Positions 11,840-63,316 of a stretch of 64,000 bases of DNA are shown piece after piece. The stretch is from the NCBI GenBank assembly GCA_013390375.1, contig JACATA010000004.1, forward strand, positions 1-64,000, given 5' to 3'. The position numbers and the translations under genes are program-made. Position 1 is the first letter of the stretch, and every line of letters starts with the position of its first letter. This DNA comes from Marine Group I thaumarchaeote (lineage in GTDB: Archaea > Thermoproteota > Nitrososphaeria > Nitrososphaerales > Nitrosopumilaceae). The notes under the pieces were generated by a model. The model saw nothing but the letters and a program-made list of their open reading frames with translations. It was not told where the DNA came from and made no database searches.

Positions 11840-12817
11840 TCATTCCACTACTTGAATGAGTTCTTTAAGATTTCTTCTTGGTTTTGGGGGTCTACGTTTT
11901 TCTGGATAACCAATACATAGAATGGAGGATGGTTTCAAATCTGTACCCAAAATAGATTTGACCTTTTCTTCATTAATCATTCCAATCCAGATTGAACTTA
12001 AGCCCAAACCAGATGCAGCAAGCAACGAAAACCCGGCAGCCAAAGTGGCATCTTGGATTGAAAACTTTTCTAAAATTTCTGGAGGAAAATTCATCTTTAC
12101 CCTTGATGGGTCCATACAAAACACCAAGACAACTGGTGCGTTTACATAAGGTTGGTTGTTTGCTGCCTCAACAAGTGCTTCTTTGACTTTTTGGTTTTTG
12201 ATATAAAATACCTTAAACCCTTGAAAGTTTCCAGCTGTAGGTGCAGTATCGGCTGCTGCTAAAATTTTGTCAACCATCCAGCCCTCTATCCTAGTTTTTG
12301 TAAATTTTCTTGTTGAACGTCTTGTTGCAAATATTCTATACAGGTCTGATTGTGAAAGGTCATGTGAAGTTTTTTTTGATTTTGATGCTAAAATCGCTTC
12401 AAGAAGTGATATTTGAGTAGGTTTTGTCTCATCAACTTTTTTTGGTTCATCATATTTGCGAATTGTGATAGATGGATAGTACTCCTTTGGGTTGATATGG
12501 ATATACTGCGGTATATGTGGAATTTTTGCATAGTCTAGAACATGTTTTTGCAGGTCAGCTGTCTTAACCTCAAGCAAGTCATGGTCTTTCAAATTAAATT
12601 CTGTGACATCTAAATTTACCATTATACGACTAACTTGATCCTCAAGCTCAACCTCACCAGCCGAGTCCCCTTTTAAGAGGTCAATTAATTGTTCGAGTTC
12701 TTTTTTGTTTAGTATGATGGTTTCTAAATCATCTTCCTCAACACCTTTCCAAACTAATCTGCAACCATCTTTTGATGTGTATGATGACTCAATTTTTGAA
12801 AACTGCATTAAGCTCAT
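11840..12817 (-). CDS. Nitroreductase-family protein with N-terminal extension
   Basis: 325 aa. The C-terminal ~175 residues form an FMN-type nitroreductase fold: IFATRRSTRKF (phosphate-binding Arg/Ser cluster), ADTAPTAGNFQGFKVFYI, APVVLVF and the late AAGFSLLAASGLGLSSIWIG and CIGYP segments. The N-terminal ~145 residues are not part of that fold and were not recognised; they are acidic and may form a separate regulatory domain. These flavoproteins reduce nitro, quinone or flavin-like substrates with NAD(P)H, and the substrate cannot be read from sequence. Its promoter region lies against the candidate 5S gene. Confidence 0.85.
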   Translation of the reverse strand: MSLMQFSKIESSYTSKDGCRLVWKGVEEDDLETIILNKKELEQLIDLLKGDSAGEVELEDQVSRIMVNLDVTEFNLKDHDLLEVKTADLQKHVLDYAKIPHIPQYIHINPKEYYPSITIRKYDEPKKVDETKPTQISLLEAILASKSKKTSHDLSQSDLYRIFATRRSTRKFTKTRIEGWMVDKILAAADTAPTAGNFQGFKVFYIKNQKVKEALVEAANNQPYVNAPVVLVFCMDPSRVKMNFPPEILEKFSIQDATLAAGFSLLAASGLGLSSIWIGMINEEKVKSILGTDLKPSSILCIGYPEKRRPPKPRRNLKELIQVVE

Positions 12818-12842
12818 AATATCAAAAACCTCATAAAAAAGT

Positions 12843-12955
12843 AGGGTGGTTTACTGGACTAAGCCAGCAGTAATCTAAATATGCAATGAAGCCATGAGGG
12901 TTGAATTTGTCTGCTGTTTGGTACTAGGATGGGAGTTTTATTTTACATCCACCCT
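12843..12955 (+). rRNA. Candidate 5S rRNA
   Basis: A 113-nt element with a 7-bp terminal helix (AGGGTGG 12843-12849 with CCACCCT 12949-12955). On the + strand it encloses a long first arm (CAGCAG/CTGCTG, then TAAAT/ATTTG and CAAT/GTTG) and a shorter second arm containing GGTACTAGGATGGGAG, very close to the loop E/helix IV signature of eukaryotic-type 5S rRNA. The arm sizes (about 50 and 30 nt) fit 5S on the + strand and not on the minus strand. A TATA-like CATAATAT sits about 26 nt upstream. If right, 5S is unlinked from and convergent with the 16S-23S operon. Strand and identity remain uncertain: loop A is too long and the usual GGGAA is absent. Confidence 0.4.
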
Positions 12956-13094
12956 CGTGCAGATTCATTCTTACGCACTTCCCCCACAGCTATTTAGAAA
13001 AATTAATTACCACATATAATCTTAGTAATTGGTTTTTACTTCAAACCAATTAAAAATATGAATCGTCATGTATAGTCTCTATGTAAGTGGCCGT

Positions 13095-16091
<2,997 letters not shown>

Positions 16092-16234
16092 ATATACGGC
16101 CACATAATACACGACTATACATGACGATCATTGCAAGCCCCCGGTGGAGACCTGCTACATCCTTCATACATCATTTTCATGATGTATTGCATCGATGGTG
16201 ATGCAAAGATTATGTGCTTTCCGTAATTCTTTCT
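16092..16234 (-). other. 16S-23S internal transcribed spacer without tRNA
   Basis: About 140 nt between the 16S and 23S ends. It holds no tRNA (euryarchaeal operons usually have tRNA-Ala here), which fits Thaumarchaeota. It contains a perfect 9-bp hairpin ATACATCAT/ATGATGTAT around 16166-16187, a GCATC/GATGC hairpin at about 16189-16205, the 3' strand of the 16S processing stem (16205-16230) and the 5' strand of the 23S processing stem (16092-16103). These are expected EndA/RNase processing signals. Confidence 0.85.
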
Positions 16235-17707
<1,473 letters not shown>

Positions 17708-17920
17708 CTGAATCTTAGAAGTATCTACTATGATATTATTGGAATTAACGGAATGCACATAATCTTCACATTTCAGATTTGATCATTTGGTCAAATCCAC
17801 ATTTTGTATGCGTAACTGGAGGCCTGTAAATCATAAAATGGTCCAATACCATACTTCATCACAAGCGCCGCTCTTGCGTTACGTATGCAAAAGTTGAGAT
17901 TGATTGAATACATATAAACC
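17708..17920 (-). promoter_or_regulatory. rRNA operon promoter and 16S leader with processing stem
   Basis: On the minus strand a TATA box TTTATATG (17911-17918) predicts transcription start near 17888, giving a ~180-nt leader. The leader segment 17742-17767 (+ strand GAATTAACGGAATGCACATA...) is nearly identical to 16205-16230 read as its partner: AAGATTATGTGC, one mismatch, TTCCGT, one bulge, AATTC. The two sides therefore pair around the 16S as the classical processing stem. A GATTTGA/TCAAATC hairpin at 17776-17797 lies just outside it. No open reading frame is supported in 17708-17989. Confidence 0.75.
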
Positions 17921-17989
17921 ATTCAAAAAAATTTTAAAAAAACATGATCTTATCGATCAGTAATATATTACAAAAAGCAGTGTTTAGAA

Positions 17990-19306
17990 ATGATAAAAAA
18001 TGATCTAAAATCTTATAAAATAAAGACAAAAAAGTCGGCAGAACTTTTTAAAAAATCTAAAAAATTACATGTTAATGGTGTTCATCACAATATACGATTC
18101 TTTGAGCCTTATCCGTTTATAACTAAATCCTCAAGCGGAAAGTTTCTGATTGATGTGGACTCTAACAAATATGTTGATTATTGGATGGGTCACTGGAGCC
18201 TTATTTTAGGTCACTCACCAAAAAATGTTAGAACCAATGTACGAATGCAACTTGATAATGGTTGGATCCATGGAACAGTTAGTAAAAACTCGATTGATTT
18301 GTCAGAAAAAATTTCAAAGGCTGTTCCAGTAGCTGAAAAAATCCGTTATGCATCAACTGGAACAGAGGCTACAATGTATGCTGTTAGGCTTGCTAGAACC
18401 ATAACAAAAAGAAAAACAATTGCTAAAATTGATGGTGGATGGCATGGTTACACTACGGATTTACTTAAAACAATCAATTGGCCATTCCACAAGTCTGAAA
18501 GTAGTGGTTTAACTGATGAAAAGCACATAATATCATTGCCTTACAATAATTTAGAAAAATCAGTCAAAATTTTGAAAACGAAAAAAAATGATTTGGCAGC
18601 TATTATTATTGAACCAGTTTTGGGTGGGGGTGGATGTATTCCTGCTACAAGGGAATACTTGTTAGGTATACAGGAATTTTGTCATAAAAATAACATATTA
18701 TTCATTCTGGATGAAATTGTCACTGGTTTTAGATTTAGATTTGGCTGCCTTTACAATACGATGAAACTTGACCCTGATTTGGTAACTCTTGGAAAAATAG
18801 TTGGTGGCGGGTTTCCAATTGGTGTTATTTGTGGTAAAAATGAACTAATGAAATATGCAAGTACCTCAATATTCTCAAAAACGGATCGTGCATATATCGG
18901 TGGTGGAACATTTTCTGCAAATCCGCTGACAATGATGGCAGGTAGCACCATGCTTACTACAATCAAAAATAAAGGTAATTTACTTTATAAGAAATTAAAC
19001 AGTTTTGGAATTGAAACTAGAAAAATGCTTGACAAAAAATTTGGTGGAAGTGTAATTACAACTGGAATTGGTTCATTGTTTTTAACACACTTTTTGAGTG
19101 ATTCAACGTATGAAATTAACAATGCAGCTGATGCTGCCAAATGTAACATAAAAAAATTACATGATTATCATTTTCACATGATTGCTAAGGATGGAATTTT
19201 CTTTTTACCAGGAAAACTTGGTGCATTTTCAGATGTACACACTAAATCTGATATCGCTAATTTGGCAAAATCTACGGATGAATTTCTTACAAAGTTTAAA
19301 AAATAA
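17990..19306 (+). CDS. Class III aminotransferase, glutamate-1-semialdehyde aminomutase-like
   Basis: 438 aa with ATG start. PLP enzyme features: [15 protein letters not shown] (phosphate-binding), [21 protein letters not shown] (PLP-binding Asp), and [12 protein letters not shown] with the Schiff-base Lys. [15 protein letters not shown] matches the HemL-like branch. Such enzymes either make 5-aminolevulinate from glutamate-1-semialdehyde or transaminate other omega-amino substrates. The N-terminal Lys-rich 25 residues and a C terminus without HemL-typical features suggest a HemL paralogue rather than the housekeeping HemL, but this is not certain. Divergent from the rRNA operon. Confidence 0.85.
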
Positions 19307-23051: not shown

Positions 23052-23104
23052 ATTTTTCGTAATCATGAAACATATTATAAAGGATATCAATTTTCTTGGA
23101 CGGT

Positions 23105-24244
23105 ATGGAAATTAAAAACATTACTGTATTAGGTTCCGGAATAATGGGTCATGGAATAGCTCAAGTTTCTGCAATGGCCGGTTATAATGTAGTGCTCAGA
23201 GATATTGAACAACAATTCTTAGACAAAGCAATGGAAAAAATAAAATGGAGTTTGGATAAGCTTGTCTCAAAAGAAAAAATTTCTGAAAATGAACGAGATG
23301 AAATATTTTCAAGAATCAAACCAATAATTGATTTGAAGGATGCTGTTCATAATTGTGATTTAGTAATAGAAGCAGTTCCAGAGATAATGGATCTTAAAAA
23401 AAAGGTATATGCAGAACTGGATAAGATCGCTGGTGATCAGGTTGTTTTTGCATCAAACACCAGTACACTACCCATAACAGAAATTGCAAATACGATCTCT
23501 AGACCGAAAAAATTTATTGGAATACACTTTTTCAATCCACCACTACTAATGAAGCTAGTTGAAGTAATACCTGGACAAGAAACTTCAAATGATATTACTG
23601 AACTTATAATTAATTTCGTGAAATCTGTTAACAAGATACCTGTTACTTGTAGAAAGGATGTCCCGGGGTTTATTGTGAACAGGCTTTTCATACCACTTGT
23701 TCACGAAGCCTGCTATGTAATGGAAAGACAAAAAATCCAACAAACTGAACTTGACTCTGCGGTGAAATTCAGACTTGGATTCCCAATGGGTATCTTTGAA
23801 TTGGCTGACTTTACAGGATTGGATGTTATTCATAAGGCAACTGTAGAAATGCATACGAGAGATAAAAAAGTAATTTTGCCACACCCAACTATTGAGCAAC
23901 TGTTCAATGAAAAAAAACTGGGACAAAAAAGTGGTGAAGGTTTCTACAAATATTCTGATGATAAATATGAAAGAATACCGCTTTCAGAGGAATTAGCCCA
24001 AAAATGTGATCCTGTGCAAATCATTGCAAACATTCTGAATAATGCAGCATGGCTTGTCACAAACAATGCTAGTGATATTGATGAGATTGAAAAGGCTGCA
24101 AACCTAGGACTTGGACTGAAAAAACCATTATTTGATACTGCAAAAGAAATAGGCATGCAAAAAATTGTAGAAGAGTTAAAAAAATTATCTAATAAACATG
24201 GTACGTTTTATGAACCTGATCCTCTTTTATTATCTATGTGTTAA
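23105..24244 (+). CDS. 3-hydroxyacyl-CoA dehydrogenase (3-hydroxybutyryl-CoA dehydrogenase)
   Basis: 379 aa from ATG 23105 (TTG at 23096 possible). The Rossmann motif GSGIMGHGIAQ, the acidic LRD at the end of strand 2, ASNTSTLPI and IGIHFFNPP (catalytic His in the latter) define the NAD-binding half. NRLFIPLVHEA and later GLGLKKPLFD define two C-terminal 3HCDH helical domains. It oxidises (S)-3-hydroxybutyryl-CoA to acetoacetyl-CoA. In the thaumarchaeal 3-hydroxypropionate/4-hydroxybutyrate cycle this is a separate protein, not fused to crotonase as in Sulfolobales, and the size here agrees. Its last 11 nt overlap the convergent gene. Confidence 0.93.
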   Translation: MEIKNITVLGSGIMGHGIAQVSAMAGYNVVLRDIEQQFLDKAMEKIKWSLDKLVSKEKISENERDEIFSRIKPIIDLKDAVHNCDLVIEAVPEIMDLKKKVYAELDKIAGDQVVFASNTSTLPITEIANTISRPKKFIGIHFFNPPLLMKLVEVIPGQETSNDITELIINFVKSVNKIPVTCRKDVPGFIVNRLFIPLVHEACYVMERQKIQQTELDSAVKFRLGFPMGIFELADFTGLDVIHKATVEMHTRDKKVILPHPTIEQLFNEKKLGQKSGEGFYKYSDDKYERIPLSEELAQKCDPVQIIANILNNAAWLVTNNASDIDEIEKAANLGLGLKKPLFDTAKEIGMQKIVEELKKLSNKHGTFYEPDPLLLSMC

Positions 24245-33050: not shown

Positions 33051-34685
33051 ATGCTAAAGTTCCAAAATAAAACTATACTAGTCACTGGAAGTGGCACTGG
33101 AATTGGACAAGCCATTACAAAGAAATTTGTGGAAAATGGTGCAAGTGCCATAATACTAGGAAGAAGAAAGGAACCGTTAGAGGAAACTGCAGAAATGCTA
33201 GAGGAAATTATCAAAGACAAACAAAGTAACGCTACCGTCAAAATTTTTGCTGGGGTAGACGTTAGCGACGAAAAAGCTGTTACTGGTATGTTTGATGCAT
33301 TAAAAAGTGAAAATGTAAATCTGGATGTTGTTGTAAACAATGCTGGAGTGTCAGGTCCTGTAACATGTTTTGTGCATGCGCCGCTGGATGATTTTAGAAG
33401 CACAGTAGATATTCATCTGACTGGAACTTTTTGGACTTCAGTTCAGGCACTAAAAGTTATGAAAAAAGGAGCAAAAATTATTACAATTTCAACATTTTTT
33501 GCGGAAGAAAGACCGTTGGAACAAAGACCATACAGATTCCGAAGTCCGTATACCGCATCTCAGGGAGCAAAAAACAGGCTTGTAGAGGCAATGTCATGGG
33601 AGCTTCTAGAAAAGGGAGTAATGTCGATTGGAACTAACCCTGGTCCAGTCCATTCGGATAGAATTTACAAGACAGTTTATCCAAAGGCTGCATCAGAATT
33701 TCTACGTGTAAGTGGTTTTGAAGACCTATCACCAAGTGAAGTTGAAGCCGCAAATAATGAAATTGTTGGATTGCTAGGAGAAGATGATGAAACTATAAAG
33801 GCTGGAATAAAATCAGCTGCAGAAAAGTTAGGCAAGGAGGAAACTACACTTACCAATTTACTAGATAAAGTCAAAACCATTGCAGAAAAAATTCAAAAGA
33901 ATACATCAACGATGATTCCAGATCAGCAATTTTTATCTCAAGAACAGGTTGCCACAACAGTTCTAACTCTTGCAGATGACGAACAGGCAAAAATTCTCAA
34001 TGGAAAAATAATTCCTGGTGACAGAGTCTTCTATCCTGTCAAGCCACACATTAGATCATCTGTTCCTAAAGCTGAGAAAAATAACTTGAATGGAAAACGA
34101 GTTCTCTTTGGTGGTATGTCACCAAGCGAACAAAGTGTAAGTTCATGGTATTCCAGTATTACATCAATGATAGAAGAGAAAGGTGGGCAGTTAGAGACTT
34201 CTAATGATTTTGATTTAGCTATTCATATCACTGGTAATCTTCCAGATTTTTCCAAATTAACTGAATTATCCAGAGATGAATGGGATAAACTAGTTGACCA
34301 ATTCATTAACACGCCTGCCAAATGGACACAACATGCCTTGAATGATTTCGTCCCCGGCGGTTCAGATGACCCAAGAAAATTCAAAGACGCAAAGGGAAGA
34401 ATTGTTATTATTGGTCCCGCCCTTCCCGCTGGCAAAAAAATTAGCGGGCATGAAAGGGCAAAGGTTGAAGTTTTCAGAGGTCTCCTTAGACCATTTGTGA
34501 CTACTGTCAATCAGGAATTGAGTGATGTACTGAAATCAAATGTCAGGGTCTTCTTAATTTTGCCTGGAACTGTTGATGGGAAGGAACCCAATGATGAGAA
34601 TATTGTAAATACTATTAACTACTTGGTGTCAGACGAAGCAGCATCAAGTTCGGAAGTAATTTTCTGCCCAGACGAGACAAGATAG
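33051..34685 (+). CDS. Tandem short-chain dehydrogenase protein resembling one half of Chloroflexus malonyl-CoA reductase
   Basis: 544 aa, twice the SDR length. The first SDR unit has TGSGTGIGQ (NAD(P) loop), NNAGVSG and ISTFFAE, but the catalytic Y-x3-K reads YTASQ, with Gln in place of Lys. It is followed by NPGPVHSDRIYKTVY, closely like the PGP-x-x-SDRI segment of Chloroflexus MCR. Next comes a ~70-residue helical insert, then a second, degenerate SDR fold (FGGMSPSEQ, IVIIGPALP, FLILPGTVDG). Size, order and insert match an MCR half. Inference: it could act in malonyl-CoA or malonate semialdehyde reduction, since an MCR for Thaumarchaeota was not identified to my knowledge. Equally it may have lost SDR chemistry. 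Confidence 0.8.
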   Translation: MLKFQNKTILVTGSGTGIGQAITKKFVENGASAIILGRRKEPLEETAEMLEEIIKDKQSNATVKIFAGVDVSDEKAVTGMFDALKSENVNLDVVVNNAGVSGPVTCFVHAPLDDFRSTVDIHLTGTFWTSVQALKVMKKGAKIITISTFFAEERPLEQRPYRFRSPYTASQGAKNRLVEAMSWELLEKGVMSIGTNPGPVHSDRIYKTVYPKAASEFLRVSGFEDLSPSEVEAANNEIVGLLGEDDETIKAGIKSAAEKLGKEETTLTNLLDKVKTIAEKIQKNTSTMIPDQQFLSQEQVATTVLTLADDEQAKILNGKIIPGDRVFYPVKPHIRSSVPKAEKNNLNGKRVLFGGMSPSEQSVSSWYSSITSMIEEKGGQLETSNDFDLAIHITGNLPDFSKLTELSRDEWDKLVDQFINTPAKWTQHALNDFVPGGSDDPRKFKDAKGRIVIIGPALPAGKKISGHERAKVEVFRGLLRPFVTTVNQELSDVLKSNVRVFLILPGTVDGKEPNDENIVNTINYLVSDEAASSSEVIFCPDETR

Positions 34686-34687
34686 TA

Positions 34688-35443
34688 TTAGAAAATACCA
34701 GTAGAATCTATAATCAGCTTAATTGCTGCTGCGATAAGCACAATGATTACTATAATCTTCAATTTGTTTTCCTTTATCTCAAGTGACAATCTGGCACCTA
34801 GAATTCCTCCAGCAAATGCGCCGATCGACAACAACAATGCCTGATAATAGTCAGGATGACCCAGCATGGAATGAACAATCAATCCAGAAAAAGATGCGAA
34901 CATCAGGATGAACTGCGAAGTAGGTGCTGCGCGCTTCATTGAGATACCAAGTGCGACGACCATCAATGGTACGAAGATTAGGCCACCTCCAATACCAAAT
35001 AGACTTGATATTATTCCCGCAAAGAAACTAGCACCCGCTGAGAAAACAAGCAAAAGACGAGATACGTCTATGGGTTTTTCCTCAATTTTTCTTTTGAGAA
35101 ATATGTATGACGCTGAAGAAATAAGAATCAGTGCAAACAAAATTTTGAAAATGTCTGGAGATATCTCAGAAGATACGAATGCCCCAAGTATTGTGCCAGG
35201 AACAGCCATTAAGCCAAGCTTCCAACCAAGTGAAAGTTCTATCCGTTTTTGTCTAGCGTACATAGTTGTTGACGCGACAGAATTACTAAACACAGCAAAT
35301 AGGCTGTTGCTTACAGCTAGTGTAGGAGAAAATCCCATGAATGTCAATACTGGGACAATAATTATCCCGCCACCCAGACCTATTATTGATCCTAATATTC
35401 CCGCAATAAACCCAAGCGGAATTAACCAAAGTTCTTCTAGCAT
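34688..35443 (-). CDS. TauE/SafE-family membrane permease
   Basis: 251 aa with about eight membrane helices. The duplicated signature GLGGGIIIVPVL (helix 1) and FGIGGGLIFVPLMVV (helix 5) identifies the family of sulfite/sulfonate/organic-anion exporters. It starts 1 nt after the DUF192 stop codon upstream, so the pair is cotranscribed. The substrate is unknown. Antisense frames of up to 203 codons here are shadows. Confidence 0.92.
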   Translation of the reverse strand: MLEELWLIPLGFIAGILGSIIGLGGGIIIVPVLTFMGFSPTLAVSNSLFAVFSNSVASTTMYARQKRIELSLGWKLGLMAVPGTILGAFVSSEISPDIFKILFALILISSASYIFLKRKIEEKPIDVSRLLLVFSAGASFFAGIISSLFGIGGGLIFVPLMVVALGISMKRAAPTSQFILMFASFSGLIVHSMLGHPDYYQALLLSIGAFAGGILGARLSLEIKENKLKIIVIIVLIAAAIKLIIDSTGIF

Positions 35444-62368: not shown

Positions 62369-63316
62369 ATGAATACAGTTAGAATACCAAAAATAATTCA
62401 ATTTGGTGAAAATGCACTTTCTGAAGCGGAATATCCAAAAAATGCTTTAGTTGTAACAACTGCCCCCCCTAAAATATCTGGTAGGTGGTTAGACAAAATG
62501 GGCATACAAGACTATATGTTGTATGATAAAGTTAAACCAGAACCATCCATTGATGATGTAAATGCTGTTGTAGCTGAATACAAAGGAAAAAACCCATCAG
62601 TGCTAATTGGTCTTGGTGGCGGAAGTTCTATGGATGTTGTAAAATATTCCTCGGCAGAATTTGGTGTAGAAAAAATTTTAATCCCTACAACTTTTGGTAC
62701 CGGAGCTGAGATGACAACTTATTGTGTTTTAAAATTTGATGGTAAGAAAAAACTTCTTGGTCCTGAAGAAAGATTCCTTGCAGATCGTGCTATAGTTGAT
62801 TCATATTTTATGGATGGTACGCCAGAACAAATAGTCAAAAACTCTGTATGTGATGCTTGTGCACAAGCAACAGAAGGATATGACAGTAAATTAGGAAATG
62901 CTTTTACAAGAACGCTATGTAAACAGGCGTTTGACGTATTATATGATGCAGTTATGAATGACAAGCCTGAAAATTATCCGTATGGTTCCATGCTTTCTGG
63001 TATAGGTTTTGGAAATTGTTCTACCACACTAGGACATGCATTGTCATATGTATTTTCTAATGAGGGTGTTGCTCATGGGTACTCTTTATCTTCATGCACC
63101 ACTATAGCACATAAACACAACAAATCAATTTTCTATGAAAAATTCAAACAAGTTATTGAAAAAATTGGTTTTGATAAAATGAAGTTAAAGGCTCCTGTTG
63201 ACGAAGCAGCTGACGTTGTAATGACTGACAAGGGACATCTTAATCCAAATCCAATTCCAATTTCAAAAGAAGACGTTATCAAATGTCTTAATGACATTAA
63301 TGATGGCAATCTTTGA
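62369..63316 (+). CDS. Iron-type alcohol dehydrogenase (candidate semialdehyde reductase)
   Basis: 315 aa. Group III ADH signatures: IGLGGGSSMDVVKYSS (nucleotide loop), IPTTFGTGAEMT, and the metal site with GHALSYVFSNEGVAHGYSLS (two His). The first His of the D-x3-H ligand pair is Gln here (DACAQATEGYD). This is not a glycerol-1-phosphate dehydrogenase pattern. In Thaumarchaeota, iron-type ADHs act as malonate or succinate semialdehyde reductases in the HP/HB cycle, and this is a plausible role by family, not proven. Size is slightly short for the family. Confidence 0.85.
   Translation: MNTVRIPKIIQFGENALSEAEYPKNALVVTTAPPKISGRWLDKMGIQDYMLYDKVKPEPSIDDVNAVVAEYKGKNPSVLIGLGGGSSMDVVKYSSAEFGVEKILIPTTFGTGAEMTTYCVLKFDGKKKLLGPEERFLADRAIVDSYFMDGTPEQIVKNSVCDACAQATEGYDSKLGNAFTRTLCKQAFDVLYDAVMNDKPENYPYGSMLSGIGFGNCSTTLGHALSYVFSNEGVAHGYSLSSCTTIAHKHNKSIFYEKFKQVIEKIGFDKMKLKAPVDEAADVVMTDKGHLNPNPIPISKEDVIKCLNDINDGNL

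Follow-up and report, generated by a model that had tools for sequence, protein, structure and literature searches.

Malonyl-CoA reductase activity is present in cell extracts of ammonia-oxidizing archaea (AOA), though the corresponding gene is reported as unidentified (PMC6038301, PMC6964070). In Nitrosopumilus maritimus both the malonyl-CoA and the succinyl-CoA reductase steps are listed in this way, and acryloyl-CoA reductase likewise has no assigned gene in AOA (PMC6038301). Here we ask whether a tandem short-chain dehydrogenase/reductase (SDR) encoded in a 64,000-nucleotide stretch of a Marine Group I thaumarchaeote (the window) could account for one of these steps. A sequence-only reading had proposed it as a candidate for the missing malonyl-CoA/malonate semialdehyde reductase.

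We find that this protein, previously without assignment, is the best present candidate for the missing step of CO2 fixation in AOA. It is probably the AOA malonyl-CoA reductase (MCR): a stand-alone, half-size and NADPH-dependent enzyme that converts malonyl-CoA to malonate semialdehyde. By computation, this assignment is based on homology to the halves of bifunctional MCR, on the succession of a catalytic SDR, an insert and an apparently non-catalytic SDR, on an invariant active site and on restriction to AOA. Among the openly accessible papers searched, none was found to name the gene.

Table 1 The tandem-SDR gene, its parts and other cycle-related genes of the window
Feature	Position	Strand	Evidence
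ORF of the tandem-SDR protein, homologue of an MCR half	33051..34685	+	ATG start, 544 aa
SDR domain 1, catalytic Rossmann domain (residues 1-205)	33051..33665	+	PF00106 E 5e-34; tree with MCR SDR1/SDR3
TGSGTGIG cofactor loop (residues 12-19)	33084..33107	+	invariant in 10 diverse orthologues
R38-R39, predicted contact of NADPH 2'-phosphate	33162..33167	+	invariant in orthologue alignments; role predicted by alignment
T148, position of catalytic Thr165 (MCR-N)/Ser731 (MCR-C)	33492..33494	+	alignment; roles PMC10470521
Active-site stretch Y161-x2-R164-x2-Y167-x3-Q171-x2-K174	33531..33572	+	invariant, 90/90 orthologues
PGPVHSDRI (residues 197-205); R204 aligned to MCR-N R215 and MCR-C R785	33639..33665	+	
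Helical insert (residues ~203-316), corresponding to the extra helices of MCR	33657..33998	+	AlphaFold secondary structure
Second SDR domain, degenerate, partly shortened (residues ~340-544)	34068..34682	+	alignment, model, domain profile
3-Hydroxyacyl-CoA dehydrogenase of the Nmar_1028 type, probably the HP/HB-cycle (S)-3-hydroxybutyryl-CoA dehydrogenase	23096..24244	+	NCBIfam matches
Iron-containing alcohol dehydrogenase (Fe-ADH), probable malonate semialdehyde reductase, Nmar_1110 type	62369..63316	+	PF00465 E 1e-23

The first domain carries the SDR motifs TGSGTGIG, NNAG and PGPVHSDRI. In a Pfam scan the 544-residue protein gave good scores with SDR-type families only, and the semialdehyde dehydrogenase domains PF01118 and PF02774, expected of a Sulfolobales-type MCR, were absent. 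The Sulfolobales malonyl-CoA/succinyl-CoA reductase, which belongs to the aspartate-semialdehyde-dehydrogenase (ASADH) family, shares the expected reaction and the position in the cycle with the AOA protein but differs in fold family. In the AlphaFold model (mean pLDDT 83.6, pTM 0.84, from a 45-row alignment), SDR domain 1 is followed by the insert and then by a second Rossmann domain; the alignments feeding our models consist of Nitrosopumilaceae sequences only. The two SDR folds, the helical insert and the PGP-x-x-SDRI segment first noticed in the translation are confirmed. Because a second-domain profile of 13 orthologues matches FabG-type reductases (E ~1e-5) and contains neither TGxxxGxG nor Y-x3-K, this domain is, judged by its motifs, a non-catalytic, degenerate SDR. 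It is variable among orthologues and shortened in the lineage of the window, where the protein has 544-573 residues compared with about 590-620 in most other AOA; the final 140 residues (EVFRGALRPF region) are conserved.

Orthologues are found in 202 of the 300 genomes of the order, in families f1, f2, f3 and f8. With amoA taken as the AOA marker, the 49 genomes of the order outside the window's own family (f1) divide as follows: the orthologue is carried by 14 of the 15 amoA-positive genomes and by none of the 34 amoA-negative ones, all of these being related genomes and hence not independent samples. The sole amoA-positive genome without it is 67% complete (G086). Of 250 Thermoproteota genomes searched with a full-length profile (E 1e-30), 39 yield the protein, all of them in AOA families. 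Since orthologues track amoA and are absent from amoA-negative genomes and from other Thermoproteota, the gene is a core gene of AOA; the sequence-only reading would have been undone by its absence from autotrophic relatives, and the opposite is seen. As a cycle marker, 4-hydroxybutyryl-CoA dehydratase (PF11794) was discarded, since non-AOA families are also positive for it. The viral contigs searched contained no relatives, and plasmid records yielded generic SDRs only and no MCR. Among named sequences, the window is closest to contigs of marine group I and Nitrosopelagicus (67-89% identity).

Which step would such a gene serve? The window contains two other HP/HB-type genes, both already pointed out in the sequence-only reading and confirmed here (Table 1). 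Nmar_1110 is a known malonate semialdehyde reductase, and as the Fe-ADH of the window is of this type, the step left open is the reduction of malonyl-CoA to malonate semialdehyde. The earlier proposal embraced both reductions; fold, tree and AOA-only distribution support it for the first one, and the second already has a probable enzyme in the Fe-ADH. The other gene probably encodes an (S)-3-hydroxybutyryl-CoA dehydrogenase of the Nmar_1028 type, whose HP/HB role is taken from PMC8287830.

Other enzyme families offer few candidates for the open step. No aldehyde dehydrogenase (ALDH, PF00171) was found in the genome of the window (G000, 95% complete) or in a complete, single-contig relative (G120), and LuxC is absent from both. 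ASADH (PF02774) has no extra copy of the Sulfolobales type: two are present in AOA and two in nearly all non-AOA genomes checked. With these three families checked, the MCR-like protein is the only CoA-acylating candidate left in the genus. This elimination supports its being a malonyl-CoA reductase and makes an additional role possible: as the genus yielded no second CoA-acylating reductase, the same protein may also reduce succinyl-CoA. The lack of a PF00171 protein in this Nitrosopelagicus-type genus (G000, G120) in any case narrows the choice of succinyl-CoA reductases there.

We consider it unlikely, however, that the protein acts mainly on succinyl-CoA, or is shared between the malonyl-CoA and succinyl-CoA steps in the manner of the bifunctional Sulfolobales enzyme. 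Its carboxylate-binding motif would take either dicarboxyl-CoA, both steps lack a gene in Nitrosopumilus maritimus (PMC6038301), and one enzyme may serve both where ALDH, LuxC and an extra ASADH are missing, as in G000 and G120. But in most other AOA there are 1-3 ALDH proteins, which are potential succinyl-CoA reductases; moreover, the residues of the site fit a C3 malonyl pocket, and no sign of a longer one was found.

The reference for these residues is the bifunctional MCR of Chloroflexota and some Proteobacteria (PDB 8hi4, 8hjw, 8a30, 6k8s), with about 1220 residues and four SDRs, compared with which the AOA protein is stand-alone and half-size, with 544 residues and two SDRs. In common with the C-terminal half (MCR-C; SDR3-ED-SDR4) it has the tandem SDR arrangement, the helical insert, a degenerate second SDR, the Ser/Thr, Tyr, Arg and Tyr of the malonyl site, PGP with the Arg following it, and the length of the Ser/Thr-to-Tyr loop. 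It differs in the shorter insert (about 115 versus 150 residues), in having Gln for the Lys of Y-x3-K together with a Lys at Tyr+7, and in overall sequence, identity being 15-18% over the structural alignment. The N-terminal half (MCR-N; SDR1-SDR2; PDB 8hi6, 8aew) is a malonate semialdehyde reductase. It resembles the AOA protein in size (about 545 residues), in its catalytic Thr, in the segment PGP..S-[DE]-RIY and in fold (TMt 0.77 to 8aew_B), but its active-site loop is shorter, the Lys is present, and most AOA families already have an unrelated Fe-ADH for its reaction.

The N-terminal half raises the question of whether the AOA protein is itself a malonate semialdehyde reductase, that is an MCR-N-like 3-hydroxypropionate dehydrogenase, perhaps for thermophilic AOA without Fe-ADH. 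Its catalytic Thr and PGP..S-[DE]-RIY segment are indeed closer to MCR-N than to MCR-C. Fe-ADH homologues occur in f8 AOA but not in f2 and f3 AOA, which retain the MCR-like gene and therefore need another route for malonate semialdehyde reduction. For Nitrosocaldus, the absence of Fe-ADH has been reported and SDRs about 30% identical to Caur_2614 have been proposed instead (PMC5797428). Against this, the gene is kept with an unrelaxed active site in Fe-ADH-bearing AOA, and its Ser/Thr-to-Tyr loop of 19 residues fits MCR-C (18) as opposed to MCR-N (13), which makes such a function quite improbable.

Alternatively, the likeness to MCR could amount to the general SDR fold, in an unrelated tandem SDR with another or a lost catalytic role. 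In sequence, the best PDB matches of the protein are the full-length Roseiflexus and Chloroflexus MCRs, and it aligns to both of their halves. Since this top rank partly sums two domains, the sequence score alone is indecisive: when SDR domain 1 is searched, a single MCR domain scores 57 bits and the ordinary SDR 4iuy 67 bits. In fold searches with the model of a full-length orthologue (L104), PDB ranks 1-24 are taken up entirely by complete MCRs or by one of their two halves, C or N (TMq 0.65-0.72, E 2e-24 to 2e-19), followed by the tandem hydroxyacyl-CoA dehydrogenase 2et6 (TMq 0.54) and then by single SDRs (E 5e-12); another tandem SDR, 6uut, reaches a TMq of 0.29. Ranks 1-25 for the model of the window protein are all MCRs as well. 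Over the whole length, the best PDB matches of both models are thus MCR halves rather than unrelated tandems, in line with the sequence-only reading, and a generic tandem SDR of the 2et6 or FabG4 type was rejected on these scores.

Phylogeny points in the same direction. The MCR rows were taken from PDB alignments that run only to the end of the first domain in each half; the tree is one of the first domain only, with a small outgroup sample of 37 SDRs. When all columns are used, the AOA rows join MCR-N and MCR-C (support 92/83). Without the active-site stretch, the AOA and MCR group also includes one long-branch plasmid SDR (92/86); with this row removed too, AOA and MCR lie on one side of a branch (95/88) and the 37 other SDRs on the other. 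The branching order of AOA, MCR-N and MCR-C is poorly supported (93/22). These trees argue for a descent that the AOA protein and the MCR halves share and the other SDRs do not. An unrelated SDR would agree with the loss of the Lys and the degeneracy of the second domain, but in view of the much lower scores of other tandem SDRs and of active-site residues invariant across four AOA families we deem it very unlikely.

The residues of the active site have been characterised in Roseiflexus MCR. Thr165, Tyr172, Arg175, Tyr178 and Lys182 of the N half and Ser731, Arg746, Tyr749 and Lys753 of the C half are required for activity, which K182A and K753A abolish; simulations show Tyr743, Arg746 and Tyr749 gripping the malonyl group, and members of Y-x2-R-x2-Y bind malonate semialdehyde or malonyl-CoA (PMC10470521). 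In the same work R41 of MCR-N contacts the 2'-phosphate of NADPH (PMC10470521), and R38-R39 of the AOA protein are its expected counterpart. By alignment, T148, Y161, R164 and Y167 occupy the MCR active-site positions, the catalytic Ser/Thr and Tyr among them. All 4 MCR halves and all 90 orthologues have Y-x2-R-x2-Y, which the 38 other SDRs compared lack. Across the 90 distinct orthologues there is zero variation at Y161, R164, Y167, Q171, K174, R176, HSDRI and R219. The last of these follows PGP at a distance similar to that of R799, a substrate contact in the extra domain of Roseiflexus MCR, the MCR alignment itself ending at residue 786.

The sequence-only reading was correct that the Lys of Y-x3-K is replaced by Gln (Q171). 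Because this Gln is found in 90 of 90 distinct orthologues, it is not the decay of a single genome. In MCR-C, Tyr+4 is Lys and Tyr+7 is Gln; in the AOA protein the two are reversed, with K174 at Tyr+7 equally invariant. Such a pairing speaks for a change in chemistry and against its loss, the other outcome that reading had allowed: loss of activity through the Lys-to-Gln change was thought unlikely, as the Gln, its neighbours and the Lys at Tyr+7 are all invariant. By analogy with other SDRs, we infer that K174 replaces the lost Lys. Its spacing is that of the FabI-type active site (Tyr156/Lys163, Tyr-x6-Lys; PMC10864336), though the middle residue of the FabI-type Y-x2-M-x3-K is Ser/Ala instead of Met. 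FabI and InhA, which are divergent enoyl-reductase SDRs, are single-domain, lack Y-x2-R-x2-Y and do not appear among the fold matches listed. Despite the Y167-x6-K174 spacing of enoyl reductases, it is most improbable that the protein is some other acyl-CoA or acyl reductase, such as the acryloyl-CoA reductase still without a gene in AOA, because the invariant Y-x2-R-x2-Y would find no carboxylate to bind in acryloyl-CoA and both fold and tree side with MCR.

We now propose a mechanism for the protein as an AOA malonyl-CoA reductase. NADPH would be bound by the first Rossmann domain, through TGSGTGIG and R38/R39, and the free carboxylate of malonyl-CoA would be held by Y161, R164 and Y167, as it is in the two halves of MCR. 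T148 and Y167 would polarise the thioester carbonyl, and CoA would be expelled on hydride transfer. Lys174 probably covers part of the cofactor or proton-relay role of the classical Lys, like the Lys of FabI-type SDRs. The resulting malonate semialdehyde would then be reduced to 3-hydroxypropionate by the Fe-ADH of the window. Counting against this reading are the Gln in place of a Lys essential in Roseiflexus MCR, the score of one MCR domain below that of 4iuy, the low confidence of the active-site loop in the model (pLDDT <50) and the surroundings of the gene, in which no operon with HP/HB or other carbon-fixation cycle genes was found. More tentatively, the AOA reductase, acting on succinyl-CoA too in Nitrosopelagicus, could possibly be one tandem-SDR module that split off before or near the duplication leading to four-SDR MCR and relocated its Lys to Tyr-x6-Lys.

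A CO2-fixation step with measured activity but no gene thereby gains one named, conserved and AOA-only candidate that can be directly expressed and assayed. The gene is also a possible marker for the AOA CO2-fixation pathway, and its product offers 3-hydroxypropionate biotechnology a natural half-size version of an enzyme already in use there.

As to the surroundings of the gene, most of the Nitrosopumilaceae examined encode a MaoC-like hotdog protein (about 150 residues; best PDB match 1q6w, E 4.5e-6) directly 3' on the same strand, starting a few bases at most from where the MCR-like gene ends (L105:7773-8225, L104:4413-4859, L171:8757-9218, L053:7647-8108). The hotdog gene is absent from the genome of the window and lies elsewhere in the genome in Nitrososphaeraceae. 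Three AOA families share a TauE/SafE permease gene next to the MCR-like gene and convergent with it, at 34688-35443 (minus strand) in the window. Finally, GC content rises to 0.43-0.48 at about 12000-18000 of the window, possibly an rRNA operon, from about 0.34 elsewhere.
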